DNA of 64,000 bases, taken from the NCBI RefSeq assembly GCF_016887965.1, contig NZ_JAFDVD010000027.1:1-64000 (forward strand), written 5' to 3'. Position 1 is the first letter of the stretch, and every line of letters starts with the position of its first letter. A program made the translations under genes and the position numbers. The notes under the pieces are model-generated. The model made no database searches, was not told the origin of the DNA, and saw only the letters and a program-made list of their open reading frames with translations. This document shows positions 7,394-62,975 of this stretch, piece by piece. The stretch is from Phycicoccus sonneratiae (lineage in GTDB: Bacteria > Actinomycetota > Actinomycetes > Actinomycetales > Dermatophilaceae).

Positions 7394-7401
7394 CGGGCCC
7401 C

Positions 7402-8688: not shown

Positions 8689-8713
8689 CGGCGCCCTCAG
8701 GCCGCTCAGGCCG

Positions 8714-9634: not shown

Positions 9635-9640
9635 GGACCC

Positions 9641-9646
9641 ACGCTA
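9641..9646 (-). promoter_or_regulatory. -10 box, leaderless LLM gene
   Basis: On the minus strand TAGCGT is followed by 6 nt and then the ATG at 9634. The box lies within 10 nt of the last codons of the upstream MFS gene, so the promoter must overlap that gene's 3' end. Confidence 0.5.
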
Positions 9647-11077: not shown

Positions 11078-11092
11078 GAACCCATCGTCACA

Positions 11093-11116
11093 CCTCAAGT
11101 GCACTTGAGGTAAACT
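11093..11116. promoter_or_regulatory. SoxR box with 19-bp-spacer promoter
   Basis: CCTCAAGTGCACTTGAGG (11093-11110) is a perfect 18 bp palindrome that matches the enterobacterial SoxR box except at its centre. On the minus strand TTTACC (a -35-like hexamer, 11111-11116) is followed by 19 nt and GACGAT, the stretched spacing typical of MerR-type activation, towards the MFS gene. The same site precedes soxR on the plus strand, so autoregulation is also likely. Confidence 0.9.
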
Positions 11117-11131
11117 GGATACTCTGGACCC

Positions 11132-11587: not shown

Positions 11588-11608
11588 CCGGGTCGGTGCG
11601 CGGGGCGT

Positions 11609-12529
11609 TCAGCCGCGGCCGAGGAGCCCCGCCGGCAGGAGCGCGTGCACGCCCCAGGTCCGGTTCGCCACCTGGGTGACGCGCAGGTCGACGACGGTGC
11701 TCGCGAGGGCCAGCGCGGTGGCGGTGTCGAGGTCGTGGAGCCGGCACAGCCAGCGGCACATCGCGTCGAGGGCGTCACCGGTGGCGGTGGTGAGGTCGGC
11801 GTCGAAGCCGAAGGTCACGAGCCCCGCGGGGGTCTCGGCGTGGACGCCGTCGAGCGGACGGTCACGGACGACGTCGACGGTCAGGGTGGTGCGCATCGGG
11901 CACTCGATGGCCGTGCCGCCGACCTCGCCGTCGCCCTGCGCGGCGTGGCCGTCGCCGAGGGAGAGCAGGGCGTCCGGCACCGTGACCGGCAGGTACACCG
12001 TGCTGCCGGCGACGAGCTCGCGGCAGTCGATGTTGCCGCCGTTGCCCGCGCGCGGCGGGATCGTCGAGTGCTCCTCGGGCTCGGCCGGGGCGGTGCCCAT
12101 GACGCCGAGGAAGGGCGCGGTCGGCCGTCGGAACCCGCGGCTCTCGACCGCCTCGCCGTCCGCGATGTCCCAGAGCAGCCACGTCGCGGGCGCGCCGCCG
12201 ATGCCGAGCCGGTCGGCGAACGCGCTCTGTCCGCCGGCGACCGTCCAGCCCCAGCCGAGGGGCTCGAGGTGCTCGACGTGGAGGGCGAGGTGGTCGCCGG
12301 GTCGGGCGCCGGTGACCGCGACCGGCCCGGTGAGGCAGTGCCCGCGCCGGTCCGGGAGGAGGAGGGGGCGCTGCTCGCCGGGTACCCGCTGGCGCTCGAG
12401 GTGCCCGGAGGCGTCGAGCGAGGTGACGGTGAGCCGGTCGCCGGGGTCGATGCGCAGGCACGGGGTGTGCCGGGGGTCGAACACGTCGACCGCGGTCCCG
12501 GGGCCGGCGTCCAGGCGGTGCTCCCTCAT
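11609..12529 (-). CDS. Acetamidase/formamidase family protein
   Basis: This 306-residue member of the FmdA/AmdA family hydrolyses formamide or a short amide to the acid and ammonia. The metal/active-site hallmark SLGDGHAAQGDGEV is present near residue 195, as are GNGGNIDCREL and FGFDADLTTAT. The start is chosen at the family N-terminus, with GAGGA upstream. It follows an MFS gene by 43 nt and a MarR gene before that, probably one operon. The true substrate is open. Confidence 0.85.
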   Translation of the reverse strand: MREHRLDAGPGTAVDVFDPRHTPCLRIDPGDRLTVTSLDASGHLERQRVPGEQRPLLLPDRRGHCLTGPVAVTGARPGDHLALHVEHLEPLGWGWTVAGGQSAFADRLGIGGAPATWLLWDIADGEAVESRGFRRPTAPFLGVMGTAPAEPEEHSTIPPRAGNGGNIDCRELVAGSTVYLPVTVPDALLSLGDGHAAQGDGEVGGTAIECPMRTTLTVDVVRDRPLDGVHAETPAGLVTFGFDADLTTATGDALDAMCRWLCRLHDLDTATALALASTVVDLRVTQVANRTWGVHALLPAGLLGRG

Positions 12530-49689: not shown

Positions 49690-50526
49690 GTGCCGGATAG
49701 GACAAACGCGACGGCGTCGACCGCCGGAGTGCTGCGCCCGGACGAGTTCGCGCGGCACGTCCGGCTCGAGCGCTCGCCCGCCGGCCCGGGCGTCGCGCCG
49801 TGGGTCGAGAACCACTGGGGCCTGCGGTGGGCGCTGCCGGACGGGCGGTGGTTCGCGAGCGAGGTGCTGCCGCACCCGACGTGCTCGCTCACCGTCGAGC
49901 ACGGGCACCGGCGCGCGGGGATGCCGGAGGGCGAGACCGTCGTCGTCACCGGGGTGTGCACCCGGCGCTTCGACGTCGAGATCCGCGGCGAGGGGGTCGT
50001 CCACGGGGTGCGGTTCCGCCCGGGCGGGCTGACGGCCCTCACCGGGCGTCCGGCCTCGGGATGGGTCGACCGCTCGGTGCCGGCCCGCGACGTGCTGCCC
50101 GAGCGGCTCGTCGCGCGCCTCGCCGACCCCGCCCTCGTGGAGGACCCTGCGGCGTGGCGGGCGGCCGTGGAGGAGGAGCTGGCGGCCGTCGTTCCCGCGC
50201 CCGACCCGCGGCACGAGGAGCTGCTGCGCATCGTGGCGGACGTGCTCGAGGACCGGTCGCTGCTCACCGTCGCCGACGTCGCCGCACGCCACGGCACGAC
50301 GCCGCGCAGCCTCCAGCGGCTCTTCACGCACTACGTGGGGGTCGGGCCGAAGTGGGTGCTCGCCCGGTACCGGATGCACGACGTGGTCACGGCCCTGGAC
50401 GACGGCTACGACGGCACCCTCACCGACCTCGCGCACCGCTTCGGCTGGTACGACCAGGCGCACTTCACCCGCGACTTCACCGCCCTCGTCGGTGTGACGC
50501 CCGGGCGGTACCGCAGCCGCCGCTGA
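49690..50526 (+). CDS. AraC-family regulator
   Basis: This 278-residue protein has an N-terminal cupin-like effector part with a DUF6597-type pattern (WVENHWGLRWALPDGRWFASEVLPHP, GVRFRPGGLTALTG) and a C-terminal AraC double HTH (about 180-278: TVADVAARHGTTPRSLQRLF, LTDLAHRFGWYDQAHFTRDF). The target is unknown; the neighbouring VOC gene is a natural candidate. It precedes the MurNAc cluster but a repeat element and a separate promoter lie between. Confidence 0.9.
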   Translation: MPDRTNATASTAGVLRPDEFARHVRLERSPAGPGVAPWVENHWGLRWALPDGRWFASEVLPHPTCSLTVEHGHRRAGMPEGETVVVTGVCTRRFDVEIRGEGVVHGVRFRPGGLTALTGRPASGWVDRSVPARDVLPERLVARLADPALVEDPAAWRAAVEEELAAVVPAPDPRHEELLRIVADVLEDRSLLTVADVAARHGTTPRSLQRLFTHYVGVGPKWVLARYRMHDVVTALDDGYDGTLTDLAHRFGWYDQAHFTRDFTALVGVTPGRYRSRR

Positions 50527-50532
50527 AGGGTC

Positions 50533-50609
50533 CGGCATCCGGAGGGAAGGTTCGGCGACCTGCCGGTTGCAACCGATCGGTCGCAGAAGGTTCCGGCATC
50601 CGGAGAGAA
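50533..50609. repeat. CGGCATCCGGAG element, copy 2 (direct arms)
   Basis: CGGCATCCGGAGGGAA (50533-50548) and CGGCATCCGGAGAGAA (50594-50609) lie in the same direction, around a dyad GCGACC/GGTCGC (50555-50584) with the inner palindrome CGGTTGCAACCG. The downstream flank AAGCTGGGACGGG parallels AAGCTGTGGCGGG after copy 1 at 14329-14408. Confidence 0.75.
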
Positions 50610-50634
50610 AGCTGGGACGGGTGGGGCGCTCCCG

Positions 50635-50663
50635 TTGCCGGATCCTCCGAGCGTGACTAAGTT
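50635..50663 (+). promoter_or_regulatory. Promoter of nagZ-namZ-amiE operon
   Basis: TTGCCG (50635-50640), a 17 nt spacer and TAAGTT (50658-50663) form a good sigma-70-type promoter 48 nt before the nagZ-like GTG. A pair of AAGTTACG motifs overlaps and follows it. Confidence 0.6.
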
Positions 50664-50697
50664 ACGTCGTATCTCACAACGACGTGAACAAGTTACG
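50659..50697. promoter_or_regulatory. Candidate MurR operator at nagZ
   Basis: AAGTTACG occurs at 50659-50666 and 50690-50697, and between them ACGTCGT/ACGACGT (50664-50670, 50679-50685) form an inverted repeat. The first copy overlaps the -10 box. GTTAC also recurs, in both orientations, around the murQ promoter. Confidence 0.45.
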
Positions 50698-50711
50698 CAT
50701 CTGGAGGAACC

Positions 50712-52520
50712 GTGACCTGGACGCCCACCCGCCGCACCGCCCTCACCGGAGGCCTGGCCGTCGCCCTCGCGGGGGCCGGAGCACCGATCGCCGAGGCCGG
50801 CGGTCGTCACCCCGACCACGGTCACCACCACGGCTGGGTCACCTCGACCCTGGCCCGGATGAGCTTGCGCGAGAAGGTCGGCCAGCTCTTCGTGCAGCAG
50901 GTCTACGGCGACACCGCCACCACCGCGCGCACCGAGAACACCACGCTCTACGGCGTCGCGACCCCGGCCGAGGTCGTGCAGAAGTACATGCTCGGGGGCG
51001 TCATCTACTTCGCGTGGACCGACAGCGTCAAGGACCCCGACCAGATCACCGCCCTGAGCAACGGCCTCCAGAAGGCGGCGCTGACCCGCCGCACGAAGGC
51101 CCGCGTCCCGCTCACCGTCGGGGTCGACCAGGAGCAGGGAGTCGTCACGCGCATCGGCCCGCCGGCCACCCAGTTCCCCGGCTCGATGGCCCTCGGCGCC
51201 GGCCGCAGCACGAAGGACGCCCGCAGCGCCGCCGCCATCACCGGGCAGGAGCTGCGCGCGATGGGCATCACGACGAACTTCGCGCCCGACGCCGACACCA
51301 ACGTCAACCCGCTCAACCCGGTCATCGGCACCCGGTCGTTCTCCTCCGACCCGGCGCTCGCGTCGCAGATGGTCGCCGCCCAGGTCACGGGCTACCAGCG
51401 CGACGGGGGCGTGATGGCCGCCGCCAAGCACTTCCCGGGGCACGGCGACACCGCCACCGACAGCCACGTCGCGTTCCCGGTCATCACGCACACGCGCGAG
51501 CAGTGGGAGACCATCGACGCCCCGCCGTTCCGGGCCGCGATCGAGGCCGGCATCGACATGGTGATGACCGCCCACCTCGCCTTCCCGGCCCTCGACGACA
51601 GCGGCGACCCCGCCACGCTGAGCAAGCCGATCCTCACCGGCCTGCTGCGCGAGGAGCTCGGCTTCGAGGGCGTCATCATCACCGACTCCCTCGAGATGCA
51701 GGGCGTGCGCGACAAGTACGGCGACGAGGAGGTGGCGGTGCGCGCGCTCGAGGCCGGCGCCGACCAGCTGCTGATGAGCCCGGCGCTCCCGAAGGCCTTC
51801 GAGGCCGTCGTCGCTGCCGTCGAGTCCGGCCGGATCAGCCGGCGCGACCTCGACGCGAAGGTCCGCCGCGTCCTCACCCTCAAGGCCGAGCGCGGCGTCG
51901 TGCGGCGTCCCTGGTCCGACCCCCGCCGGGTCGACGACGTCGTCGGCACCGCCGCGCACCTCGCGGTCGCCGACGCCGTGTCGAACCGCACGACGACGCT
52001 CGTGCGCAACGACGACGGCGTCCTGCCGATGGCGGTCTCCGGCAAGAACCTCCTCGTCACCGGCTACGGCGACACGACGACGAAGACCCTCGCCGCCGGC
52101 CTCGCCGGCCAGGGCGCGAGCACGACGGTCCTCACCACCGGCTCCTCGCCCACCGACGCCCAGATCGCGGCGGCCGTCTCCGCGGCGGCCGGGCGCGACG
52201 CGGTGGTCGTCACGACGATGAAGGCCTGGGACACCACGGTCACCGACAAGACCCGCGGCCAGCAGAAGCTCGTGGCCGCCCTGCGGCAGACGGGGGTTCC
52301 CGTCGTCGTCGTCGCCACGCGCGACCCCTACGACGTCGCGTACCTCGGCGACTGCGAGACCTACCTCGCCACGTACAGCTACAGCCCCGTCGCCCTGCAG
52401 GCCGCGGCCCGGGTCATCACCGGCGCGGTGTCGCCGACGGGCAAGCTGCCCGTCGACGTCCCCGTCGCCGGCGACCCCACGACCGTCCTCTACCCGTTCG
52501 GCTTCGGCCTCGGCTACTGA
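50712..52520 (+). CDS. nagZ: Exported GH3 beta-N-acetylglucosaminidase (NagZ-like)
   Basis: This 602-residue enzyme removes GlcNAc from peptidoglycan fragments. A twin-arginine signal (TRRTALTGGLAVALAGAG, residues 6-23) exports it. The GH3 barrel has VDQEQGVVTR, the His/Asp loop KHFPGHGDTATDSH characteristic of NagZ, and the nucleophile Asp in ITDSLEMQG; a C-terminal Rossmann-like domain follows, as in B. subtilis NagZ. GGAGG is 4 nt before the GTG. It is the first gene of the MurNAc cluster; with NamZ and the AmiE-like protein it forms an extracellular set. Confidence 0.92.
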   Translation: MTWTPTRRTALTGGLAVALAGAGAPIAEAGGRHPDHGHHHGWVTSTLARMSLREKVGQLFVQQVYGDTATTARTENTTLYGVATPAEVVQKYMLGGVIYFAWTDSVKDPDQITALSNGLQKAALTRRTKARVPLTVGVDQEQGVVTRIGPPATQFPGSMALGAGRSTKDARSAAAITGQELRAMGITTNFAPDADTNVNPLNPVIGTRSFSSDPALASQMVAAQVTGYQRDGGVMAAAKHFPGHGDTATDSHVAFPVITHTREQWETIDAPPFRAAIEAGIDMVMTAHLAFPALDDSGDPATLSKPILTGLLREELGFEGVIITDSLEMQGVRDKYGDEEVAVRALEAGADQLLMSPALPKAFEAVVAAVESGRISRRDLDAKVRRVLTLKAERGVVRRPWSDPRRVDDVVGTAAHLAVADAVSNRTTTLVRNDDGVLPMAVSGKNLLVTGYGDTTTKTLAAGLAGQGASTTVLTTGSSPTDAQIAAAVSAAAGRDAVVVTTMKAWDTTVTDKTRGQQKLVAALRQTGVPVVVVATRDPYDVAYLGDCETYLATYSYSPVALQAAARVITGAVSPTGKLPVDVPVAGDPTTVLYPFGFGLGY

Positions 52521-52551
52521 CGCCGGCCACCCCGAGACCCCAGGAGAACGC

Positions 52552-53862
52552 ATGACCTCGCTCGACCGCCGCACCCTCTTCGCGGCCGGCGCCCTCGGCG
52601 CCGCGGCCACCGCCGCCACCGTCGGGGCCGCCCCCGCCTCCGCCACCTCCGGCCACGGTCACGGGAAGGGCGTCGTCCCCGGCGCCGACCGGGCCGCCGC
52701 CGACCGCTGGAAGGTCCTGCGCGGACGGAAGGTCGGGGTGGTCACCAACCCGACCGGCATCCTGCGCAACCTCCGCAGCATCGTGGACGAGATGCACGAC
52801 TCCGGCGCCGTCGACCTGCACGCGGTCTTCGGTCCCGAGCACGGCTTCCGCGGCACCGCCCAGGCGGGCGACGCCGAGGAGACCTACACCGACCCGCGCA
52901 CCGGCGTGACGGTCTACGACGCCTACGGCGCCACCGCGGACTCACTGACCCGGATGGTCCGCGAGGCCGGCGTCGACACCGTCGTCTTCGACATCCAGGA
53001 CGTCGGCGCGCGCTTCTACACCTACGTCTGGACGATGTACACGGCGATGCGGGCGGCCCTGCGCGCCGGCGCCTCGTTCGTCGTCCTCGACCGCCCGAAC
53101 CCCATCGGCGGGACGGCCCGCGGCCCGATGATGACGACCGCCTTCACGACCGGCGTCGGCGCGAAGGAGATCGTCCAGGCCCACGGCATGACCGTCGGCG
53201 AGCTGGCCCGCTTCTTCGACGGCGAGTTCCTCGAGGCCGAGGAGGGGCGGACGCTCGGCGACCGGCTCGAGGTCGTGGAGGTCTCCGGCTGGCGCCGCGA
53301 CACCGTCTTCGCCGACACCGGGCTCACGTGGGTGCTGCCGAGCCCGAACATGCCGACGCCGAACACCGCGCTCGTCTACCCCGGCACCTGCCTGTTCGAG
53401 GGCACGAACCTCTCCGAGGGGCGTGGCACGACGGCCCCGTTCGAGCTCGTCGGCGCCCCGTTCGTCGACCACCGCTGGGCCGAGCGGCTCGTCGCCCGCG
53501 ACGTCCCCGGCGTCGCGTTCCGCGAGGCGTACTTCAACCCGGTCGTCAACAAGCACGTCGGGAAGGTCTGCGGTGGCGTGCAGGTGCACGTCACCGACCC
53601 GCTGCGGCTCGACGGGCCGCGGCTCGGGGCCGAGATGCTCGTCGCCGCCAAGGCCCTCTACGCCGACTTCGCCTGGCGCCAGGACAGCTACGACCCCGCC
53701 CGTCCGTTCTGGGTCGACAAGCTGACCGGGTCGCCGCGCCTGCGGGAGATGGTCGACGCCGGCGCCCCGGCCGACGAGGTCGTCGGCGCCTGGCGCGAGG
53801 AGCTCGCGGCGTTCGACCGCCGTCGGAAGCCCTACCTGCTCTACCGCGGCGGCCGCCGGTGA
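52552..53862 (+). CDS. namZ: Exported exo-beta-N-acetylmuramidase (NamZ-like, DUF1343/GH171)
   Basis: This 436-residue protein carries a twin-arginine signal (DRRTLFAAGALGAAA) and a full DUF1343 domain: VGVVTNPTG, the FGPEHGFRGTAQAGD active-site segment, TVVFDIQDVGARFYTY, VLDRPNPIGG and LPSPNMPTPNTALVYPGTCLFEGTNLSEGRGT. The B. subtilis homologue NamZ (YbbC) splits MurNAc from the non-reducing end of wall fragments. AGGAG is 5 nt before the ATG, 31 nt after nagZ. The stop is overlapped by the next gene. Confidence 0.94.
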   Translation: MTSLDRRTLFAAGALGAAATAATVGAAPASATSGHGHGKGVVPGADRAAADRWKVLRGRKVGVVTNPTGILRNLRSIVDEMHDSGAVDLHAVFGPEHGFRGTAQAGDAEETYTDPRTGVTVYDAYGATADSLTRMVREAGVDTVVFDIQDVGARFYTYVWTMYTAMRAALRAGASFVVLDRPNPIGGTARGPMMTTAFTTGVGAKEIVQAHGMTVGELARFFDGEFLEAEEGRTLGDRLEVVEVSGWRRDTVFADTGLTWVLPSPNMPTPNTALVYPGTCLFEGTNLSEGRGTTAPFELVGAPFVDHRWAERLVARDVPGVAFREAYFNPVVNKHVGKVCGGVQVHVTDPLRLDGPRLGAEMLVAAKALYADFAWRQDSYDPARPFWVDKLTGSPRLREMVDAGAPADEVVGAWREELAAFDRRRKPYLLYRGGRR

Positions 53863-55601
53863 CCGCCCCGACCGGCGCCCGCCGACGGGCCTGGGCCGTC
53901 CTCGCGACGACCGGCGTGCTCGCCGCGTCCGTCGTCGCCGCCTCGCCCGCGACCGCGAACGACGTCGACCGACCCGAGAAGGGGTTCATGCCCGCCAGCA
54001 CCGTCCTGCGCGACCGCGCGCCGCAGAAGGTCGGCCTCGACCCCGCGCCCATCGCCGAGGCCGAACGCCTCATCGCCTCCCACGAGGAGGCCCCGACGCC
54101 CGACGGCCACCCGATGTACGGCGGAGCCGTGGGCGTCATGGGCCACGACGGCGCGGTCGTCGCCCGGCACGCCAGCGGGTGGGCGGTGCGCTGGCAGGAC
54201 GCGACGACCGAGCTCCCCCGCGACGAGTGGGTGCCGATGCGCGAGGACACCGTCTTCGACCTCGCGTCGGTGAGCAAGCTGTTCACCTCGCTCGTCACCG
54301 TGCAGCTCGTCGAGCAGGGGGAGGTCGACCTCGACGCCCCCGTGGCGACCTACCTCCCGGAGTTCGCCGCGAACGGCAAGGAGGCGGTCACCGTCCGCCA
54401 GCTGCTGACGCACACCTCCGGCTTCACCTCGTGGCTGCCGCTGTGGTCGAAGTACCCCGACGAGGCGTCGCGCATCCAGGCCGTCATGGACCAGCCGCTC
54501 ACCAACCCGGCCGGCTCGACCTACCTCTACAGCGACCTCAACCTCATCACCCTCGGCGTGATGGCCGAGCGCCTCACCGGCACGACCCTCGACCGGCTGG
54601 TGCACGACCGCATCACGGCCCCGCTGGGGATGCGCGACACGGGGTACAACCCGGCCGACAGGGAGCGCACGGCCGCCACCGAGTACCAGACGGCGCCGCC
54701 GCGCGGGCTCGTGTGGGGCGAGGTGCACGACGAGAACGCCTGGTCGCTCGGCGGCGTCGCCGGGCACGCCGGTGTCTTCTCGACGGCCGACGACCTCGCG
54801 GTCCTCGCCCAGGCGCTGCTCAACGGCGGCACCTACCGGGGCCACCGGATCCTCGACCGCAGGAGCGTCGAGCTGCTCGTCACGAACTTCAACCAGGCCT
54901 TCCCGGGCGACGCGCACGGCCTCGGGTTCGAGCTCGACCAGCGCTGGTACATGGACGGCCTCTCGGGTCCCCGCACGGCCGGGCACACCGGGTACACCGG
55001 CACCTCGATCGTCATCGACTTCGACAGCCGCTCCTTCGCCGTCCTCCTCACCAACCGGGTGCACCCCTCGCGCGAGTGGGGCAGCAACAACCAGGCGCGC
55101 CGCGAGTGGGCCCGCGGCCTCGCGCTCGCGATGCCCGTCGACCCCCGGCACGGGCGCACGGCCTGGGAGTCCGGGCACGCCGACGCCACGACCGCCACGC
55201 TGACCGCTCCGGTGCAGGTGCCGGCCCGCGGCGGGCGGCTCGCCTTCGACCTCTTCGTCGACACCGAGGACACCGACGTCCTCACCCTCGAGACCTCCGC
55301 CGACGGCGGCACGACGTGGACCCCGCTGCCCTTCGCCCTGCGCGAGCGGGGGACCGAGACGACCACCGACGGCACCGTCTCCGGGTACCACGAGCGGCGC
55401 TGGGCCCAGGCCCGGGCCGACCTCCCGGCCGGTGACCTGCTGCTCCGGTGGCGGATGACGACCGACGCCCAGTACCTGGGGCGCGGCGTCCTCGTCGACG
55501 GCGTGCGCGCCACGGCCGGACACCACGTGCTGCTCGACGGCGAGCGGCACGCGTCCGTGTTCGACCCCCGCGGGTGGAGCGTCGTGCGCAGAGGGACCTA
55601 G
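53859..55601 (+). CDS. Exported serine hydrolase (AmiE/class C beta-lactamase-like) with C-terminal domain
   Basis: This 580-residue protein has a signal peptide (residues 8-34, ending SPATAND), a serine beta-lactamase-fold domain (about 55-425) with nucleophile motif SVSK (Ser137, Lys140), YSDLN (Tyr224) and GHTGYTG, and an extra C-terminal beta-sandwich-like region (about 435-580, STSADGG-type pattern). In B. subtilis the same cluster position is held by AmiE, an N-acetylmuramyl-L-alanine amidase of this fold that frees MurNAc from peptide. GTG overlaps the namZ stop. An amidase role is inferred from context. Confidence 0.82.
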   Translation: MTAPTGARRRAWAVLATTGVLAASVVAASPATANDVDRPEKGFMPASTVLRDRAPQKVGLDPAPIAEAERLIASHEEAPTPDGHPMYGGAVGVMGHDGAVVARHASGWAVRWQDATTELPRDEWVPMREDTVFDLASVSKLFTSLVTVQLVEQGEVDLDAPVATYLPEFAANGKEAVTVRQLLTHTSGFTSWLPLWSKYPDEASRIQAVMDQPLTNPAGSTYLYSDLNLITLGVMAERLTGTTLDRLVHDRITAPLGMRDTGYNPADRERTAATEYQTAPPRGLVWGEVHDENAWSLGGVAGHAGVFSTADDLAVLAQALLNGGTYRGHRILDRRSVELLVTNFNQAFPGDAHGLGFELDQRWYMDGLSGPRTAGHTGYTGTSIVIDFDSRSFAVLLTNRVHPSREWGSNNQARREWARGLALAMPVDPRHGRTAWESGHADATTATLTAPVQVPARGGRLAFDLFVDTEDTDVLTLETSADGGTTWTPLPFALRERGTETTTDGTVSGYHERRWAQARADLPAGDLLLRWRMTTDAQYLGRGVLVDGVRATAGHHVLLDGERHASVFDPRGWSVVRRGT

Positions 55602-55604
55602 GTT
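55599..55604 (+). promoter_or_regulatory. -10 box, leaderless murR
   Basis: TAGGTT overlaps the TAG stop codon of the serine hydrolase gene and lies 6 nt before the murR ATG (55611), so the regulator has its own leaderless promoter inside the cluster. Confidence 0.5.
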
Positions 55605-55610
55605 GTGCTC

Positions 55611-56486
55611 ATGGCCAGCCAGCCCCTCGACGGTGCTCCCTCGCTCCTCGTCCGGCTCCGCGGCGTCCGGCCCTCGCTCTCACCGGCCGAGGACCGCGTC
55701 GCGGAGCAGGTCCTCGCCGACCCCCGCGCCGCCGCCGGGCTGACGATCAGCGAGCTCGCGGTCGCCGCCTCGACGTCCGAGACCACCGTCCTGCGCTTCT
55801 GCAAGCGGCTCGGGCTGCGCGGCTACCCGCAGCTGCGGCTCGCGCTCGCCGAGGCCTCCACCGGAGGGCGTCCGCAGGCCCCGACGAGCGACATCAGCGA
55901 CGAGGACTCCGTCGACGACGTCATCGCCAAGGTCGCGCACGCCGACGCCAGCGCCGTCGACGAGACCGCCCAGACCATCGACCGCGGGGCCCTCACCGCG
56001 GCCGCCGAGGCGATCTCGCGGGCCACGCGCGTCGACGTCTACGGCATCGGGGCCAGCGCCCTCGTCGGGATGGACCTCCAGCAGAAGCTGCACCGCATCG
56101 GCTCGATGGTGTTCTGCTGGAACGACCCCCACATCGCCCTGACGAGCGCGACGCTGCTCGGGCCGGGCGATGTCGCCATCGGCGTCTCGCACTCCGGCAC
56201 CACGGTCGAGACCGTCGAGGCGCTCGAGCTCGCCCGGACGCGGGGCGCGACGACCGTCGCCATCACGAACTTCCCGGTCTCCCGGCTCGCCGAGGTGGCC
56301 GACCACGTGCTGGCCACCGCGGCCCGCGAGTCGAGCCTGCGCTCCGGGGCCACCGCGAGCCGCATCGCGGCGCTCACGGTCGTCGACTGCCTCTACATCA
56401 CCGTCGCCCAGCGCGACCTCGCCCGCGCGCGCTCGGCCGTCGAGCACACCCGGCAGGCCGTCGCCGGGCACCACGTCCGTTACTGA
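55611..56486 (+). CDS. murR: RpiR-family regulator (MurR-like)
   Basis: This 291-residue protein has an N-terminal RpiR HTH (LSPAEDRVAEQVLADPRAAAGLTISEL, AVAASTSETTVLRFCKRLGLRGYPQLRLAL) and a C-terminal SIS sugar-phosphate domain (about 125-265: VYGIGASALVGMDLQQKLHRIG, VSHSGTTVETVEA). MurR proteins bind MurNAc-6-phosphate. Its position directly upstream of murQ supports that ligand. A possible operator repeats GTTAC/GTAAC in the nagZ and murQ promoters. Confidence 0.88.
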   Translation: MASQPLDGAPSLLVRLRGVRPSLSPAEDRVAEQVLADPRAAAGLTISELAVAASTSETTVLRFCKRLGLRGYPQLRLALAEASTGGRPQAPTSDISDEDSVDDVIAKVAHADASAVDETAQTIDRGALTAAAEAISRATRVDVYGIGASALVGMDLQQKLHRIGSMVFCWNDPHIALTSATLLGPGDVAIGVSHSGTTVETVEALELARTRGATTVAITNFPVSRLAEVADHVLATAARESSLRSGATASRIAALTVVDCLYITVAQRDLARARSAVEHTRQAVAGHHVRY

Positions 56487-56516
56487 TTCACGGGATTGCG
56501 GACTCGGACGGAGGAA

Positions 56517-56524
56517 AGTAACAT
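56517..56524 (+). promoter_or_regulatory. -10 box of murQ operon with GTAAC motif
   Basis: TAACAT (56519-56524) is 7 nt before the murQ GTG. AGTAAC (56517-56522) overlaps it, and the complementary GTTACT lies at 56479-56484 across the murR stop codon. A bound regulator could block this promoter. Confidence 0.45.
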
Positions 56525-56531
56525 CGCTCGG

Positions 56532-57509
56532 GTGAGCACCGAGGCCACCGTCATCGCCCCCACCGAGGAGCGGCATCCCGGCACCGTGGGCATCGACGCC
56601 CTCGGCACCCTCGACGTGCTCCGGCTGCTCAACGCCGAGGACGCGCTCGTCGCACCGGCCGTGGCCGAGGTCCTCCCCGCGCTCGCCGCCCTCGTCGACG
56701 CCGCCGTCGAGGCCGTCCGGGCGGGCGGCACCGTGCACTACGTCGGGGCCGGCACCTCGGGTCGGCTCGCCGTCCTCGACGCCGCCGAGCTGCTCCCCAC
56801 CTTCAACGCCCCACCGGGGCTCGTCGTCGCGCACCACGCGGGTGGGGCCGAGGCCCTGCTGCGCGCGGTCGAGAACGTCGAGGACGACGCGGACCGGGGG
56901 AGGGCCGACCTCGACGCCGTGGGCGGGGGCGACGTCGTGGTCGGCCTCACCGCGTCCGGGCGCACGCCGTACGTCGGCGGCGCCCTCGCCCTGGCTCGCG
57001 AGCGCGGTGCCGTCACCGCCCTCGTCACCTCGAACCCGCACCCGGAGCTCGCCGCCCTCGCCGACCACCTGCTCGCCGTCGACACCGGCCCCGAGGTGAT
57101 CACCGGCTCGACCCGGCTCAAGGCCGGTACCGCGCAGAAGCTCGTCCTCAACGCCTTCTCGACCGCGGTGATGATCCGCCTCGGCCGCACCTGGTCCAAC
57201 CTCATGGTCGACGTCGTCGCGACGAACGCCAAGCTGCGCGGACGCGTCGTGCGCATCCTCCGTGAGGCGAGCGGCGCCGACGAGGCCGAGGCCCGTGCGG
57301 CGCTCGAGGCCACCGACGGCGAGCTGAAGCCGGCGCTCGTCACCCTCCTCGCCGGGGTGGACGCCGCGACCGCCCGCACCGCGCTCGCCACCCACGGCGG
57401 CTCGGTCGCCCGCGCCCTCACCGCCGTCGGTGGCGTCCCCGCCGACCCCGACTCCCACCGCAGCACCCACCGGCCCCTGGCCCCCGTCCCGACAGGAGAC
57501 CACGCATGA
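56532..57509 (+). CDS. murQ: N-acetylmuramic acid 6-phosphate etherase
   Basis: This 325-residue SIS-domain enzyme cleaves the lactyl ether of MurNAc-6-P to give GlcNAc-6-P and D-lactate. Hallmarks are TEERHPGTVGIDAL, VGAGTSGRLAVLDAAELLPTF (first catalytic Glu), AVENVEDD (second Glu) and TGSTRLKAGTAQKLVLNAFSTA. The length is normal. It is the diagnostic enzyme for a MurNAc catabolic route. Its stop is overlapped by the binding-protein gene (ATGA). Confidence 0.97.
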   Translation: MSTEATVIAPTEERHPGTVGIDALGTLDVLRLLNAEDALVAPAVAEVLPALAALVDAAVEAVRAGGTVHYVGAGTSGRLAVLDAAELLPTFNAPPGLVVAHHAGGAEALLRAVENVEDDADRGRADLDAVGGGDVVVGLTASGRTPYVGGALALARERGAVTALVTSNPHPELAALADHLLAVDTGPEVITGSTRLKAGTAQKLVLNAFSTAVMIRLGRTWSNLMVDVVATNAKLRGRVVRILREASGADEAEARAALEATDGELKPALVTLLAGVDAATARTALATHGGSVARALTAVGGVPADPDSHRSTHRPLAPVPTGDHA

Positions 57510-58792
57510 CCACCCGAACCTCCCGGAGCCGGATCGCCCTCGCGCTCGGCGCGGGCGTCCTCGCCCTCGCGGCGTGTGCGCCCTCGTCGTCCTCGGGCGG
57601 CGACGACGGCGACGGCACCACGCTGACCGTCTGGTCCTGGCGCGTCGAGGACAAGGCCGCGTACGACAAGATCTTCGACGTCTACGAGAAGTCCCACCCG
57701 GGCGTCACGGTCGACTTCAAGCCCTTCAAGGCCACCGAGTACAACAAGATCCTCGCCACCGGCCTCGCCGGCAAGGACGGGCCCGACGTGCCGCAGGTGC
57801 GCTCCTACGGCCAGCTCCAGGGCACCGTCGCGGCCGGCTCGCTCGTCCCGCTCGACGGCAAGGTCGACCTGTCGTCGTGGGACGAGAACGTCGTCGCCAG
57901 CGCCAAGGGCAAGGAGGACGGCAAGATCTACTCCGTGCCGCTCGCCCGCCAGGCGACCGTGCTCTTCTACGACAAGAAGATGTTCTCGGACAACGGGGTC
58001 CAGGTCCCGACCACGTGGGACCAGTTCATCGCCGCCAACGAGACCTTCCTGAAGAAGGGCATCACGCCGCTCGCCGTCGGGGCCAAGGACGACTGGACCC
58101 TGCCGATCGTCCACGAGGTGCTCGCCGGTGCCCGCTTCGGCGGCGCCGACTTCCAGGAGGCCGTGACCTCCGGCGCCAAGGACTTCACCGACCCCGACTT
58201 CGTCGCCTCGGTCGAGGTGCTCAAGCAGCTCGAGAAGTACATGCCGAAGAGCGTCACCGGTGTCGCCGTCACCGACGCGATGACCCTCTTCACGTCGGGC
58301 AAGGCCGCGATGTACCCCGGCGGGTCCTACGACCTCGCCACCCTCCAGAAGGGCAACCCGGAGATGGAGATCGGCGTCATGCAGGTGCCGCCGGCCTCCG
58401 GCGCCCCGAGCGGCGCCACCGGCACGACGGCCGGCTGGGCCGACGGCAACTTCGCGGTCAACAGCAAGTCGCCGCACCAGGAGGAGGCCACCGAGCTCGT
58501 GACGTGGATGGCCACCCCCGAGTTCGGCCAGCTCGTCGCCGACGAGGTCAAGCAGATCTCGGCCGTCCCGGGTGTCACCTACTCCGACCCGGTGCTCAAG
58601 CAGGTCGCGGACGACTACGACAAGACCGGGTCGCCCTACCTCCTGCTCACCGACTTCCGCTACGGCACCCCGACGGGCACCGACCTGCTCGGCAAGGGCG
58701 CCCAGGAGCTCTTCCTCGGCAGCAAGGACGCCAAGACCGTCAGCACCGAGCTGAACTCCGGTGTGATGACCTGGTTCGAGCCCACCAGCTGA
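57506..58792 (+). CDS. ABC sugar-binding lipoprotein
   Basis: This 428-residue extracellular solute-binding protein (family 1) has a lipoprotein signal with LALAAC (Cys24), then TLTVWSWRVEDKAAYDKIF, the GKDGPDVPQVRSYGQL segment, a Trp-rich hinge and WADGNFAVNSKSPHQEEATELVTWM. AGGAG is 7 nt before the ATG, which overlaps the murQ stop. Context points to MurNAc or a MurNAc-containing muropeptide sugar as ligand. Confidence 0.93.
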   Translation: MTTRTSRSRIALALGAGVLALAACAPSSSSGGDDGDGTTLTVWSWRVEDKAAYDKIFDVYEKSHPGVTVDFKPFKATEYNKILATGLAGKDGPDVPQVRSYGQLQGTVAAGSLVPLDGKVDLSSWDENVVASAKGKEDGKIYSVPLARQATVLFYDKKMFSDNGVQVPTTWDQFIAANETFLKKGITPLAVGAKDDWTLPIVHEVLAGARFGGADFQEAVTSGAKDFTDPDFVASVEVLKQLEKYMPKSVTGVAVTDAMTLFTSGKAAMYPGGSYDLATLQKGNPEMEIGVMQVPPASGAPSGATGTTAGWADGNFAVNSKSPHQEEATELVTWMATPEFGQLVADEVKQISAVPGVTYSDPVLKQVADDYDKTGSPYLLLTDFRYGTPTGTDLLGKGAQELFLGSKDAKTVSTELNSGVMTWFEPTS

Positions 58793-58810
58793 CCCACCCC
58801 GACCACCCCG

Positions 58811-58838
58811 GCGGCCGGCGCCCACGAGGCCCGGCCGC
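58811..58838 (+). promoter_or_regulatory. Intercistronic hairpin between binding protein and permease
   Basis: GCGGCCGG (58811-58818) pairs with CCGGCCGC (58831-58838) around a 12 nt loop in the 85 nt gap. Such hairpins often stabilise the binding-protein message or attenuate downstream genes, giving more binding protein than permease. Confidence 0.5.
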
Positions 58839-58877
58839 TGGGTGAGCCGGTCACCGACCTCCCACCCCCCGGAAGCC

Positions 58878-59777
58878 ATGAACCGACGTACCGGACTGCT
58901 CTTCGTCACCCCGGCCCTCGCGCTGTTCGGGGTGTTCGTCCTCTACCCGATGGTCACCGCGTTCTCCTACGCGTTCTACGACTGGCAGGGCACCGCCCGC
59001 GGCGGCTTCGCCGGGCTCGAGAACTTCACGGCGCTCTTCACGCGCGCACCGTTCACCACCGACCTGCCCCGCGCGCTGCTGCACAACGTCCTCTTCTTCG
59101 TCGGGACGATGCTCGTGCAGAACACGATCGGGCTCACCGTCGCGTTCCTGCTGCACCGACGGGTCCGCACCCGCCGGGCGCTCCAGACGCTCTACGCGAT
59201 GCCCTACCTCGTCAGCCCGATCGTCATCGGCTACCTGTGGACGCTCCTGCTGTCCCCGACCTTCGGGCCCGTCAACACCCTGCTGACGAAGGTCGGCCTC
59301 GAGTCGTGGGCGCTGCCCTGGCTCGGTGACCCGGACACCGCGCTCTGGGTCGTCATCCTCGTCAGCGTCTGGCAGTGGATCGGCTTCCCGGTCCTGCTCT
59401 ACGGGGCCGCGCTCGGCGGGGTGCCCGAGGAGCTGTCCGAGGCGGCCCGGGTCGACGGCGCCTCGCACGCGCAGACCTTCCGGCGGGTCACCTTCCCGCT
59501 CCTCGTGCCGGCCATCGGCACGGTGAGCGTGCTGACCTTCATCTTCGCGATGGAGGCCTTCGCGCTGCCCTACGCGTTCGGCGGCTCGACGGGCAACCCG
59601 GCGGGCTCGACCGACTTCATCTCGCTGCTCTTCTACCGGACGGCCTTCGACTCCGGGGCGACCGACGCCATCGGCACCTCGTCGGCGCTGGCCACGCTGC
59701 TCTTCGTCCTGATCTTCGGAGGGGCGTACGCCGCGACCGCGGTGCTGCGCCGGCACGAGCGGAGGATCACCGCGTGA
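58878..59777 (+). CDS. ABC sugar permease 1
   Basis: This 299-residue MalF-type permease has six helices and the cytoplasmic EAA loop EELSEAARVDGASHAQTFRRV for contact with the ATPase. RRTGLLFVTPALALFGVFVLYPM is the first helix. ATG at 58878 is preferred because GGAAG precedes it; GTG at 58842 would add 12 residues. It overlaps the second permease as GTGA. Confidence 0.92.
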   Translation: MNRRTGLLFVTPALALFGVFVLYPMVTAFSYAFYDWQGTARGGFAGLENFTALFTRAPFTTDLPRALLHNVLFFVGTMLVQNTIGLTVAFLLHRRVRTRRALQTLYAMPYLVSPIVIGYLWTLLLSPTFGPVNTLLTKVGLESWALPWLGDPDTALWVVILVSVWQWIGFPVLLYGAALGGVPEELSEAARVDGASHAQTFRRVTFPLLVPAIGTVSVLTFIFAMEAFALPYAFGGSTGNPAGSTDFISLLFYRTAFDSGATDAIGTSSALATLLFVLIFGGAYAATAVLRRHERRITA

Positions 59778-60709
59778 GCGTCGTCCCGGCCGGCATCGGC
59801 ACCGCCGACGAGCCCGCGGACGTCACCCCCGCCACCGGAGACGGCGGCCCCGGGTCGGGTGCCCCGCGCCGGCAGCGCGCGCGCGGCCGCACCGCGCCCG
59901 TCGGGGGGCGGACGGCCAGCGTCGCGCTCTGGGTGTACGCCGCCTTCGCCCTCGTGCCGCTGCTCCTCATGCTCAGCAGCTCGTTCCGCAGCAACGGCGA
60001 CCTCATCTCGAACCCGCTCGGCGCGCCGTGGCCGCTGTCGTTCGATGCGTACGAGGAGGCCTGGACCGCAGGCAACTTCGCGACGTACTTCGGCAACAGC
60101 CTGCTCGTGACGCTCGGCGCGGTGGTGCTCTCGACGACGGTCGCGACGATGGCGTCGTACGCGCTGGCCCGGGGTCGCTCGCGCATCTTCCGGTGGCTGG
60201 AGTCGCTCTTCCTCTCCGGGCTGATGCTGCCCATCCACCTCGCGATCCTGCCGATCTTCTACCTCTTCGACGGGGTCGGCCTCGTCGACTCCCGGCTCGG
60301 GCTGGCGCTGCTGTACGGGGCGTCCGGCGTGCCGTTCTCGATCTTCGTCCTCACGACGTTCTTCCGGCAGCTGCCCGAGGAGCTCGAGGAGGCGGCGACC
60401 CTCGACGGCGCGAGCGCCTGGCAGACCTTCTCGCGGATCATGGTGCCGCTCGTCCGGCCGGCCCTGGCCACCGTGGCGGTCTTCCGGTTCGTCCCGATCT
60501 GGAACGACTTCCTCTTCCCGCTCGTGCTGCTGCGCGACGACGCGAAGTACACCCTGCCCGTCGGCCTCACGCAGTTCTTCGGCGAGAACGCGACGAACTA
60601 CGCGGCCGTCTTCGCCGGGCTGGTCATCACGACCCTGCCGCTCATCGCCCTCTTCCTCGTCGCGACCCGGCAGATCGTCGCCGGCTTGACCGCGGGCATG
60701 TCCAAGTGA
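59774..60709 (+). CDS. ABC sugar permease 2
   Basis: This 311-residue MalG-type permease has a disordered cytoplasmic N-terminus (about 45 residues), six helices and the EAA motif EELEEAATLDGASAWQTFSRI. It pairs with permease 1. No ATPase gene lies in the cluster, so a shared MsiK/MalK-type ATPase elsewhere is expected, as is common for CUT1 importers of actinobacteria. Confidence 0.92.
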   Translation: MSVVPAGIGTADEPADVTPATGDGGPGSGAPRRQRARGRTAPVGGRTASVALWVYAAFALVPLLLMLSSSFRSNGDLISNPLGAPWPLSFDAYEEAWTAGNFATYFGNSLLVTLGAVVLSTTVATMASYALARGRSRIFRWLESLFLSGLMLPIHLAILPIFYLFDGVGLVDSRLGLALLYGASGVPFSIFVLTTFFRQLPEELEEAATLDGASAWQTFSRIMVPLVRPALATVAVFRFVPIWNDFLFPLVLLRDDAKYTLPVGLTQFFGENATNYAAVFAGLVITTLPLIALFLVATRQIVAGLTAGMSK

Positions 60710-60722
60710 TCGGCTCGCGCGG

Positions 60723-61661
60723 GTGAGCACCCTCGTGGCCGTCGACGTCGGCGGCAGCGGCCTGCGACTGCTCGTGTGCCGCGACGGCGTGGGCGGACCG
60801 CCGCGCAGCGCGGCCGGGGCTCGGGTCGGCGCCGCCGGGCTCGACGTCGCGGCCCTGGCCGCCGACGCCCGCGCGCTCCTCGACGCCGAGGGCGTCGACC
60901 GGCCGGACGCCGTCTGCTGGTCGACCCGCGGGCTGCTCTTCCTCGCCGACCCGGCCGACGTCCTGCTCGCCGTGGGGGCGGCGCTCGGAGCCCGGCGCAC
61001 CGCCGTCGTCAGCGACGCGGTCGCCAGCCTCGTCGGGGCGCTCGGCGAGGTCGTCCCCGGCGCGGTCGTGGCGGCCGGCACCGGCGCCGTGGCCTTCGGC
61101 TCCGACTTCGACGACCACTGGACCCGCGTCGACGGCTGGGGGCACGTGCTCGGCGACCGGGGCTCGGCCGCGTGGGTCGGGATGGAGGGCCTGCGCGTCG
61201 CGCTGCGGGCCCGGGACGGTGTCGACGGCGGGTCGGCCGGCCTCCTCGACGCCGCGCAGGACCTGCTCGGGCCGTGCGAGACCTGGCCCCGCCGGGTGAT
61301 GACCGGGGCCGACGCCCCCGAGGCGCTGGCCTCGGTCGCGCCGCTCGTCACGGCGGCCGCCGCGTCCGGCGACGTCGTCGCGGCGGGCGTCTGCGTCGCG
61401 GCGGGACGCTCGCTCGGGGAGTCGCTCCTCGCGGCGGCCGCCGGCCTGGAGCGTCCCCGGCTCGTCGTCACCGGAGGGCTGCTGCGCGCCGACGCGGTGC
61501 GCAGCGCCCTCGACGAGGTCGTGCACGACGCCGGCCTCGACGTCACCCGCTCGGTCGGCGGGGCGCTCGACGGCGCCCTCGTCCTCGCCTCGCGCCTCGA
61601 CGCCACGGGCGACCTGCCGCGGCACCCGGAGTACGTGCACGTCGGCGCACCCCGCGCCTGA
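60723..61661 (+). CDS. BadF/BadG-type sugar kinase (MurNAc/GlcNAc kinase candidate)
   Basis: This 312-residue ASKHA-fold kinase shows the phosphate-1 motif AVDVGGSGLRLLV, the phosphate-2 motif AGTGAVAFGS and the sugar-site segment GWGHVLGDRGSAAWVG. The family includes GlcNAc kinase and the MurNAc/GlcNAc kinase MurK. Because the ABC importer delivers unphosphorylated sugar and MurQ needs MurNAc-6-P, this enzyme should supply that phosphate. It lies 13 nt after the permease, the last gene of the cluster. Confidence 0.88.
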   Translation: MSTLVAVDVGGSGLRLLVCRDGVGGPPRSAAGARVGAAGLDVAALAADARALLDAEGVDRPDAVCWSTRGLLFLADPADVLLAVGAALGARRTAVVSDAVASLVGALGEVVPGAVVAAGTGAVAFGSDFDDHWTRVDGWGHVLGDRGSAAWVGMEGLRVALRARDGVDGGSAGLLDAAQDLLGPCETWPRRVMTGADAPEALASVAPLVTAAAASGDVVAAGVCVAAGRSLGESLLAAAAGLERPRLVVTGGLLRADAVRSALDEVVHDAGLDVTRSVGGALDGALVLASRLDATGDLPRHPEYVHVGAPRA

Positions 61662-61675
61662 CAGACTCTGCCGCC

Positions 61676-62740
61676 ATGGACATCCCCCAGCACTGGGTGC
61701 GGGTCGAGGGCTTCAGCCCGCACCTCGGGCGCTCCGGCGGCCCGGTGTCGGTCTGGGGCTGGTCGACCACCTCCGACGAGGAGGCCCGGCAGGTCGGCGA
61801 GCAGCGGCTCGCGGACCTCCTCGACCGGGTCGCGCGCGAGGGTCGCCTGCCCGCCACCCGCGGCTACTACCCGCGCACCCCGCTGCGCGAGCCGGTGCTC
61901 GAGGACGTCGAGTCCGCTGATGGACGGCGGGTCGGGGTCGTCACCCGCAACCGGATGGGCTGCGAGGTGCTGTGCACCGACGTCCTGTTCGTCGCCGACG
62001 TCGACGTGCCCGAGCTCGCGGACGAGGTGCCCCCCGCGGGGGAGGCGTCGGCAGCCCCGGCCCCGCGGTCCCGGGGGGCGGGGTCGTTCCTGCGCCGGCT
62101 GTTCCTCGGGCGTCCCGACCCCACGCCGATGGCACCGGGGGGCGAGGACGCGGCGGGGCTCGACGCGCCGTCGGCCCCGAGCCCGGCACCCGCGCCCGAC
62201 ACCGGCTACGAGGCCTACCCCGCCGATCCCACCGACCCGACCGGAATCCGGGTCGCGGCGACCGGCCCCGAGACGCCGTCCGTCGCGGAGTGCCTTGCGG
62301 CGGAACCGGTCTGGGAGTTCGGGCGACGCCACCCCGAGCTGGGGGTCCGGGTGTACCGGACGGCTGCCGGGTTGCGTGTGCTCGTCACGGGGGTCGACGC
62401 CGCGCCGGGGTCCGAGCGGGCGGCGCAGCTGCTCGCCGAGCTCGACAGCGACCCGTTGTACGCCGAGCTGTGCGCGACGCACGGCAGCTACCGGGCCCGG
62501 TTGACACCCAAGCCGTTCCGCGTGGGTCGGCGGGCCCTCGACGTCTCGTGGCCGTGCGCCGACGAGGCCGCCGAGCGGCGCTGGATGCGCTGGGTCGACC
62601 GGTACGAGTCGCGCACCGTCGAGTACGCCACCTGCCGGCTGATCAGCGCCTCCGGGCCGGTGCCCGGTCCCGACGAGCAGCGCCTGGTCGAGCTCCACGA
62701 CGAGCGCACCGGCGTGGGCGTGCGCCTGCCCCTCGCCTGA
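61676..62740 (+). CDS. Conserved hypothetical protein
   Basis: This 354-residue protein is of an unnamed family: N-terminal WVRVEGFSPHLGRSGGPVSVWGWS, then RGYYPRTPLREPVLEDV and a TRNRMGCEVLCTDVLFVADVD segment, a 75-residue Pro/Ala-rich linker (about 118-195), and a C-terminal part with LGVRVYRTAAGLRVLVTG, YRARLTPKPFRVG and VEYATCRLISASG. No signal or catalytic motif is recognised. It starts 14 nt after the kinase gene but has its own possible promoter; a link to MurNAc use is not supported. Confidence 0.7.
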   Translation: MDIPQHWVRVEGFSPHLGRSGGPVSVWGWSTTSDEEARQVGEQRLADLLDRVAREGRLPATRGYYPRTPLREPVLEDVESADGRRVGVVTRNRMGCEVLCTDVLFVADVDVPELADEVPPAGEASAAPAPRSRGAGSFLRRLFLGRPDPTPMAPGGEDAAGLDAPSAPSPAPAPDTGYEAYPADPTDPTGIRVAATGPETPSVAECLAAEPVWEFGRRHPELGVRVYRTAAGLRVLVTGVDAAPGSERAAQLLAELDSDPLYAELCATHGSYRARLTPKPFRVGRRALDVSWPCADEAAERRWMRWVDRYESRTVEYATCRLISASGPVPGPDEQRLVELHDERTGVGVRLPLA

Positions 62741-62838: not shown

Positions 62839-62893
62839 CCGCCACACACGACGAAGCCCCGCGCTGGCGCGCGGGGCTCGTCGTGAGTGGCGG
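62839..62893 (-). terminator. tRNA terminator whose outer stem includes the tRNA 3' end
   Basis: The arms (62839-62863 and 62870-62893; core AAGCCCCGCG/CGCGGGGCT) extend outward through ACGACGA/TCGTCGT to CCGCCAC/GTGGCGG. The right arm on this strand covers positions 62888-62893, the 3' end of tRNA-Ser(GGA). The layout matches the terminator after tRNA-Ser(CGA). Confidence 0.78.
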
Positions 62894-62975
62894 AGGATGG
62901 GGGATTTGAACCCCCGAGGGTTTTATCCCAACACGATTTCCAATCGTGCGCACTAGGCCACTATGCGAATCCTCC
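62888..62975 (-). tRNA. tRNA-Ser(GGA)
   Basis: This is a class II tRNA on the minus strand. Acceptor GGAGGAT (5' end at 62975) pairs with ATCCTCC, with discriminator G and encoded CCA (62888-62890). The anticodon loop TTGGAAA carries GGA, the variable arm is long, and the T loop is GTTCAAATC. It reads UCC/UCU codons. Confidence 0.97.

Follow-up and report, generated by a model that had tools for sequence, protein, structure and literature searches.

A murQ-linked gene cluster in Phycicoccus sonneratiae with a candidate ABC-type N-acetylmuramic acid importer in place of a PTS permease

The murQ-murR-murP-amiE-nagZ-ybbC cluster of Bacillus subtilis combines secreted NagZ, NamZ, and AmiE with MurR and MurQ (PMC5061867; this and the other papers cited by PMC number are drawn on in excerpt), its permease being MurP, an EIIBC protein of the sugar phosphotransferase system (PTS). 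The MurT-MurK-MurQ operon of Tannerella forsythia, by comparison, is PTS-free and joins a transporter with a kinase for N-acetylmuramic acid (MurNAc) and with MurQ; MurP and MurT are the dedicated MurNAc importers in print, as far as the excerpt goes (PMC5790795). Here, we analysed a stretch of 64,000 nucleotides from Phycicoccus sonneratiae (hereafter the window), in which nine genes on the plus strand (50712-61661) encode NagZ (family GH3), NamZ, an AmiE-like protein, a MurR-like regulator, MurQ, the substrate-binding protein (SBP) and two permeases of an ATP-binding cassette (ABC) importer, and a sugar kinase. With NagZ, NamZ, AmiE-like, MurR-like, and MurQ proteins encoded in one cluster, the locus mirrors the B. 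subtilis set, as the original prediction had claimed, whereas the SBP, the two permeases, and the kinase stand in place of MurP and the gene order differs; likewise, MurT is a single secondary transporter, whereas the window importer is of the ABC type. Among the matches listed in the open-licence literature there was no ABC importer of MurNAc, which agrees with the suggestion that this one may be undescribed. We consider it probable that the nine genes form a MurR-controlled MurNAc scavenging regulon, with an ABC-type MurNAc importer and a MurNAc kinase, in a bacterium without a sugar PTS.

In the proposed pathway, exported NagZ and NamZ would take N-acetylglucosamine (GlcNAc) and MurNAc off the ends of glycans or muropeptides, and exported AmiE would strip the peptide from MurNAc. 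Free MurNAc would be bound by the lipoprotein SBP and imported through the two permeases, a shared ATPase of the MsiK/UgpC type powering the transport; inside the cell, the BadF-type kinase would form MurNAc-6-phosphate (MurNAc-6-P), which MurQ would cleave to GlcNAc-6-P and D-lactate. NagA-like and NagB-like enzymes encoded elsewhere would complete the pathway, and MurR would bind a DNA box and sense MurNAc-6-P.

Pfam families were scored against gathering scores and curated NCBIfam/TIGR models against their own cut-offs, and both the searches and the coordinates agreed with the nine adjacent plus-strand genes and the families first assigned to them. Neighbouring genes overlap by 4 bp at the NamZ/AmiE, MurQ/SBP, and MalF-like/MalG-like permease junctions, and the remaining gaps measure 3-49 bp. 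The first gene (50712-52520) encodes a NagZ-like GH3 beta-N-acetylglucosaminidase of 602 aa (PF00933/PF01915; Glyco_hydro_3, 297 bits; GH3 C-terminal domain, 76 bits), the best solved match of which is B. subtilis YbbD/NagZ (3bmx, E 2.2e-91). Together with the GH3 N-terminal domain it carries the motif KH(F/I)PGHG..D.H, which we take to define NagZ, as KHFPGHGDTATDSH from residue 239, and it falls under the cut-off of the curated model NF003740 (168.5 versus 207 bits). The second gene (52552-53862) encodes a NamZ exo-beta-N-acetylmuramidase of 436 aa (NamZ_N, 245.6 bits; NamZ_C, 177.9 bits; gathering scores 26.9 and 25), with two solved homologues of the NamZ family (4k05 and 4jja); we take NamZ to represent family GH171 and to be the product of ybbC in B. 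subtilis. The third (53859-55601) encodes a serine hydrolase of 580 aa (Beta-lactamase, 242 bits) with SVSK at residue 137, YSD at 224, and HTG at 376. Its predicted identity as AmiE, a MurNAc-L-Ala amidase, is derived from its membership in the beta-lactamase fold family and from gene context, and its top curated model is PBP4B, below cut-off (177.5 versus 385 bits). This protein has an additional C-terminal MAM-like domain at residues 427-561 (InhA-like_MAM, 28 bits; gathering score 26.9).

Two exported enzymes with twin-arginine signals had been predicted, and twin arginines were indeed read by eye in NagZ (TRRTAL) and NamZ (DRRTLF), along with a lipobox (LAAC) in the SBP. A loose regular expression found the twin-arginine motif in 32 of 35 NamZ relatives and 12 of 33 NagZ relatives, counts that include some rows with misassigned starts (e.g., L055 and L091; L and G numbers are our labels for loci and genomes) and that pass over RRQTL, a form outside the reach of the expression and present in 7 of 9 Kribbella NagZ proteins.

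The regulator gene (55605-56486) encodes an RpiR-family protein of 293 aa (HTH_6, 60.6 bits; SIS, 82.7 bits), which we call MurR-like because it misses the cut-off of the curated MurR model NF012026 (125.8 versus 408 bits). MurQ, the MurNAc-6-P etherase (56532-57509, 325 aa), lies above the cut-off of the curated equivalog TIGR00274 (306.7 versus 302 bits) and matches three distinct solved MurQ sequences, including 4s12 (E 1.7e-75). The open reading frame (ORF) caller begins this gene at 56496; the true start is probably the GTG at 56532, since the TTG at 56496 belongs to a proposed -35 element (see below). The importer genes follow, encoding (i) a lipoprotein SBP of the CUT1 type, the candidate MurNAc-binding protein (57506-58792, 428 aa; SBP_bac_1, 122 bits), (ii) a MalF-like CUT1 permease (58842-59777), and (iii) a MalG-like CUT1 permease (59774-60709), the two permeases scoring 83 and 67 bits with BPD_transp_1. 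The last gene (60723-61661) encodes a BadF/NAGK-type sugar kinase of 312 aa (BcrAD_BadFG, 59.6 bits; gathering score 31.5), a candidate MurNAc kinase resembling MurK.

The P. sonneratiae genome (4.1 Mb, 33 contigs, 98.8% complete) contains no match to the PTS domain EIIC (PF02378), which was matched in 7 of 14 control genomes. Enzyme I (TIGR01417) is below cut-off (best 84.4 versus 341.7 bits), and both of its matches fall within a single 900-aa frame, which, judging by length and sequence, we take to be pyruvate phosphate dikinase. Both results support the original proposal that an ABC importer and a kinase stand in for the PTS permease. The nine-gene cluster lacks an ABC ATPase gene, and a MsiK/UgpC-type ATPase encoded elsewhere in the genome (contig C32; 474.2 bits versus a cut-off of 432) would be the shared partner of the importer. 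The DasABC-MsiK system (PMC6167110) and NgcEFG, which import GlcNAc and chitobiose in actinobacteria, are likewise of the CUT1 type, with a lipoprotein SBP and a MsiK-type ATPase encoded apart; the window importer differs from both in that its SBP is far under the NgcE cut-off and is linked to murQ. The nine-gene set ends at GlcNAc-6-P, and the NagA-like gene (168 bits, under the cut-off of 225.65) and the NagB-like gene (227 bits, under the cut-off of 236.9) lie outside the cluster. On contig C30 (48000-64000, L125; positions 5589-12417), genes for a DeoR regulator, a ROK kinase, an SBP, and two permeases lie near the nagA-like gene and make up a candidate separate GlcNAc uptake set. On contig C24 (25000-36000, L127; positions 158-6247), the nagB-like gene lies beside a second GH3 gene and the genes of another ABC set for sugars.

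To survey the linkage of importer and murQ, MurQ was used as the query against one genome per species, which gave at least 61 named loci, and 10 kb were fetched on either side. Among the matches listed, to which the following counts of 61 refer, the nearest named MurQ relative is that of Phycicoccus sp. HDW14 (91% over the best segment). All nine genes occur in window order and strand in 9 of the 61 loci (L034-L041 and L044), and because these were fetched with MurQ alone as the query, the arrangement is not a matter of chance. The SBP family (>400 bits) is present in 13 of the 61, the four beyond these nine being from Nakamurella, Microtetraspora (two), and Agromyces. In the Nakamurella locus and both Microtetraspora loci (L048, L065, and L066), the linkage of importer and murQ is kept, and NagZ, NamZ, and AmiE are not encoded within the 10 kb fetched on each side. 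In 18 of the 61 loci, including those of Kribbella, Kutzneria, and Actinopolymorpha, this importer is absent and NagZ, NamZ, AmiE, MurR, and MurQ are encoded together on the same strand.

The comparison of murQ neighbourhoods that the original prediction had proposed was extended to 297 genomes of the order, with murQ called at >200 bits, the SBP at E <= 1e-60, and up to 5 candidates scored per genome. murQ was found in 110 of these genomes and the SBP family in 15, all of them among the 110 (Fisher one-sided p 1.8e-7, a statistic that ignores relatedness). Of 16 SBP copies, 12 adjoin murQ (L095-L102, L104, L106, L108, and L109), and two end at contig edges (G154 and G137), where the murQ match is partial and on another contig. 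The second copy in G067 (L132, 4468-9575) belongs to a diverged SBP-permease set by MurR and a BadF kinase, without murQ, and its SBP is without Arg385. A survey across the phylum, with at most 4 candidates scored in each of 396 genomes, found the SBP in 5; three of these are new, each from another family outside the class, and all three copies adjoin murQ. G517 has all nine parts in an order different from that of the window. G336 has eight, with MurQ-SBP-permeases-kinase convergent with NagZ-NamZ-AmiE and no MurR match in the fetched stretches, and G352 has MurR-MurQ-SBP-permeases-NagA together with a NagB-II-like SIS gene and a divergent BadF kinase. In G517 (L147, C1:3914000-3924000; positions 3100-9030), NamZ and AmiE are followed by the genes for a kinase and a NagA-like protein and then by a second set of the form SBP-permease-permease, which scores 126, 162, and 188 bits with the window proteins.

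In the tree, the members of the SBP family group together with a support of 94/86 and in 96% of 200 bootstrap replicates; the deepest branch, a long one of unsure placement, leads to a member from a Hyphomicrobiales genome. At that Hyphomicrobiales locus (L093, 8920-15501), a NagK-like kinase gene is divergent from MurQ-SBP-permease-permease-MalK/UgpC ATPase, such that the importer has its own ATPase beside murQ. The locus in the window is a genuine and conserved variant of MurNAc scavenging that is PTS-free, and its ABC importer family is likely new, with MurNAc as the candidate ligand.

Residues of the SBP provide a clue to specificity. The family signature comprises SWR.ED near residue 46, TEYN at 77-80, Arg99, and FRYG at 384-387. 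All 23 family members have Arg99, and none of the 11 valid comparison SBPs does, three of these being gapped at that column; a twelfth row (own_L126, a wrong ORF and not an SBP) was dropped, and the outgroup alignments are uncertain. Arg46 is kept by 22 of the 23 members and missing from L105, where the SBP gene does not adjoin murQ; Arg385 is kept by 21 and missing from L110, where the gene does not adjoin murQ either, and from the distant L093, where it does. This arginine pattern suits a pocket that would read a carboxylate, as a correlation only. We lean, with some reserve, towards a dedicated CUT1 subfamily of MurNAc importers that may read the lactyl carboxylate by Arg46, Arg99, and Arg385, that is coupled to a MurK-like kinase and MurQ in several actinobacterial lineages with a distant alphaproteobacterial relative, and that would supply the MurP function in PTS-less or MurP-less bacteria.

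The SBP model (pLDDT, the predicted local distance difference test, 89.1) retrieved sugar binders in a fold search, at 16-24% identity among the 50 best. The nearest folds include the oligosaccharide binders 4g68 (xylan-utilisation protein), 2i58 (raffinose), and 7eho (chitin oligosaccharides), as would suit an importer that takes MurNAc-peptide, GlcNAc-MurNAc, or a larger muropeptide, with trimming partly inside the cell. The Pfam matches of the SBP are SBP_bac_1 and SBP_bac_8 only, and SBP_bac_1 is a sugar family, whereas the SBP of the Agrobacterium system YejBEF-YepA is presumably of the peptide type, SBP_bac_5. As an ABC importer that serves wall recycling, YejBEF-YepA is a precedent for ABC import of muropeptides, and it is described as a broad-specificity peptide transporter with a peptidoglycan-specific SBP in Alphaproteobacteria (PMC9790009). 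Against muropeptide import in P. sonneratiae, the kinase and MurQ act on a monosaccharide and the cluster is without a cytoplasmic amidase or glycosidase; moreover, NagZ, NamZ, and AmiE have apparent export signals, and the predicted products outside the cell are therefore monosaccharides and peptide. We regard import of such larger fragments as very improbable, and import of free MurNAc as the better reading of the cluster.

The kinase provides a second clue. Its best sequence match in the PDB is the MurNAc/GlcNAc kinase MurK of Clostridium acetobutylicum (8zo3, E 2.5e-13), with about 20% identity and a fold E of 2.6e-16, and the fold matches of its model (pLDDT 93.9) are 2e2n/2e2o, 8zo3, 1zc6, and 2ch5 (human NAGK). 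T. forsythia MurK is a weaker, distant fold match (15-17% identity), and the window kinase has D-G-W where that protein has S-P-L, a correspondence that is our own reading of the excerpt (PMC10465942). Among 14 kinases, namely those linked to the importer, including the window kinase, or encoded directly after murQ in L043 and L047, the residue after the GD motif (in the region of residues 137-148) is Arg or Ala in all 14 and Glu in C. acetobutylicum MurK, which is suggestive only. The match to MurK, the linkage of SBP and murQ, and the shared boxes described below support the original picture of a secreted digesting set that would feed a candidate MurNAc importer.

The same kinase match also bears on another possibility, namely that the importer serves GlcNAc, or GlcNAc and MurNAc alike, with a GlcNAc or dual kinase and with MurNAc secondary or entering by another route. 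The closest solved kinase by sequence, 8zo3, was crystallised with GlcNAc and uses both sugars with a slight GlcNAc preference (PMC5790795); NagZ, too, releases GlcNAc, and the closest curated model of the SBP is a GlcNAc/chitobiose binder, though far below cut-off. The window SBP was rejected as NgcE itself (TIGR03851, 77.6 versus 399.65 bits), and a search of the genome yielded no NgcE above the cut-off. A GlcNAc importer is, however, at odds with the Nakamurella and Microtetraspora loci, in which the tie to murQ holds with no NagZ, NamZ, or AmiE gene close by, and the ABC set with DeoR and ROK kinase near the nagA-like gene is a better GlcNAc candidate. In addition, the two Actinoplanes clusters tested carry true NgcE instead of the window-type SBP (610.7 bits in L088 and 617.2 bits in L076), and their ABC genes were rejected as orthologues of the window importer. 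We consider a GlcNAc or dual importer unlikely and retain MurNAc as the candidate ligand. In these Actinoplanes clusters (L088, 439-4858; L076, 1625-6454), the NgcE-type SBP, permeases, and AmiE are divergent from the hydrolase gene that follows, which encodes NagZ in L088 and NamZ in L076; MurR, in turn, is divergent from a weak kinase match (in L088 NagK-like, 78.8 bits, under cut-off). In an actinomycete metagenome-assembled genome (L064, 3830-10885), murQ and a NagK-like kinase gene flank a sugar ABC set that differs from that of the window.

A DNA box is shared by the two halves of the cluster. This 13-bp box, GTNA-N5-TNAC, was read from regions upstream of nagZ and scanned for within 120 bp upstream of genes. 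In the window, MurR-type box 1 (GTGACTAAGTTAC, 50653-50665) overlaps the -10 element of a proposed plus-strand nagZ promoter (50635-50663; TTGCCG at 50635, a 17-bp spacer, and TAAGTT at 50658), which was recognised by eye in the upstream regions of relatives; box 2 (GTGAACAAGTTAC, 50684-50696) lies 31 bp after box 1. Box 3 (GTTACTGATTCAC, 56479-56491) is just upstream of murQ and precedes a proposed internal plus-strand murQ promoter (56496-56524; TTGCGG at 56496, a 17-bp spacer, and TAACAT at 56519), the architecture of which is conserved in relatives. Upstream of nagZ, the box is found in 21 of 34 loci, the window included (shuffles: mean 0.5, maximum 2), the motif having been drawn from the same set. 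The murQ sites were not used in drawing it, save one site in the window, and there the box is found in 16 of 59 loci with the starts of the ORF caller (shuffles: mean 0.6, maximum 3) and in 16 of 45 with starts anchored on the conserved N-terminus (shuffles: mean 0.8, maximum 4), these 45 being the loci, out of 62 (the 61 and the window), in which the start anchor could be recognised and 130 bp of upstream sequence were available. The combination of the box with a TTG -35 and a TAAC.T -10 element, a pattern fitted after sight of the sequences, occurs at murQ in 15 of 45 loci and in none of 200 shuffles. At the other genes scanned, the box was found upstream of murR in 0 of 53 loci, amiE in 0 of 29, sbp in 0 of 14, and namZ in only 1 of 36. 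These candidate operator sites would link the digesting and importing halves, and their positions suggest two transcription units, nagZ-namZ-amiE-murR and murQ-sbp-permF-permG-kinase (permF and permG being the MalF-like and MalG-like permease genes), under one regulator. The box-bearing loci are related sequences, since the matches are from Intrasporangiaceae and Nakamurella. In nine Kribbella loci (L049-L054, L056, L058, and L092), a conserved promoter-like sequence, TTGAA ... TAACAT, lies upstream of murQ without the box.

Several observations weigh against a MurR-controlled regulon with a dedicated MurNAc importer and kinase. The linkage and sequence comparisons draw on related, non-independent sequences. 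A strict sigma-70 scan of 50500-61900 returned no site, and both promoters are therefore kept as tentative. The top fold match of the kinase is the hexokinase of Sulfolobus tokodaii, and its score with the curated GlcNAc kinase (NagK) model NF046058 is 49.5 bits against a cut-off of 370. The parts also separate: both Microtetraspora loci have MurQ and the importer with no kinase match within the fetched stretch, the Janibacter and Knoellia (Soil729) loci (L043 and L047) have murQ followed by the kinase gene without importer genes, and two of the 16 SBP copies in the order are not beside murQ (L105, by MurR and NamZ; L110, a second copy, by MurR). Within the taxonomic family, 6 of 12 genomes with murQ at >200 bits (P. 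sonneratiae included) show no SBP among the up to 5 candidates scored in each. Furthermore, in ten genomes with importer-less murQ clusters, no SBP orthologue was found with all candidates scored (six gave only 25-31% matches and four nothing at E <= 1e-20), and EIIC was lacking in seven of these ten and found in only three. Among six importer-bearing genomes searched, EIIC had no match in four and one match (51.5 bits) in one, and the single Microtetraspora genome has two EIIC matches in addition to the importer. A PTS permease after murQ was also sought in Kribbella, Kutzneria, and Actinoplanes, and none was seen by eye in 13 importer-less loci, the neighbours of which were not run against family models. 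Because ten murQ genomes are without an orthologue of the SBP, and seven of these also without EIIC, other routes of MurNAc import must exist, and the importer is one of several solutions for MurNAc import across murQ genomes.

Beyond the cluster, an AraC-type regulator (DUF6597 and HTH_18) is encoded upstream of nagZ at 49690-50526, as it is in two of three Phycicoccus loci (L034 and L036) and in the Janibacter locus L043, and a minus-strand tRNA-Ser(gga) gene (62888-62975) lies directly downstream.

As to the role of the pathway, the proposed biochemistry is compatible with recovery of the cell's own wall turnover, as in B. subtilis, rather than with feeding on other bacteria, a role that we regard as possible, if short of probable. 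In B. subtilis, Staphylococcus aureus, and Streptomyces coelicolor, loss of murQ leads to an accumulation of MurNAc-6-P derived from the cell's own wall (PMC5061867); the patchy presence of the pathway (murQ was found in 0 of 2 other genomes of the genus in the order sample) suits an optional nutrient path more, without being decisive. The S. coelicolor locus (SCO4307, murQ) combines MurQ with a MurR-like regulator and, in the excerpt, has no MurP orthologue; SCO4305 and SCO4306 are named there with unknown function and not as a window-type importer (PMC5061867). The S. coelicolor murQ mutant accumulates MurNAc-6-P despite having no MurP orthologue, and the excerpt assigns no import route to it (PMC5061867). 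The mosaic of importer-less clusters and EIIC-free genomes means that at least one more import route is to be found, and the cluster of P. sonneratiae offers one testable protein set for MurNAc import in part of the MurP-less actinobacteria.

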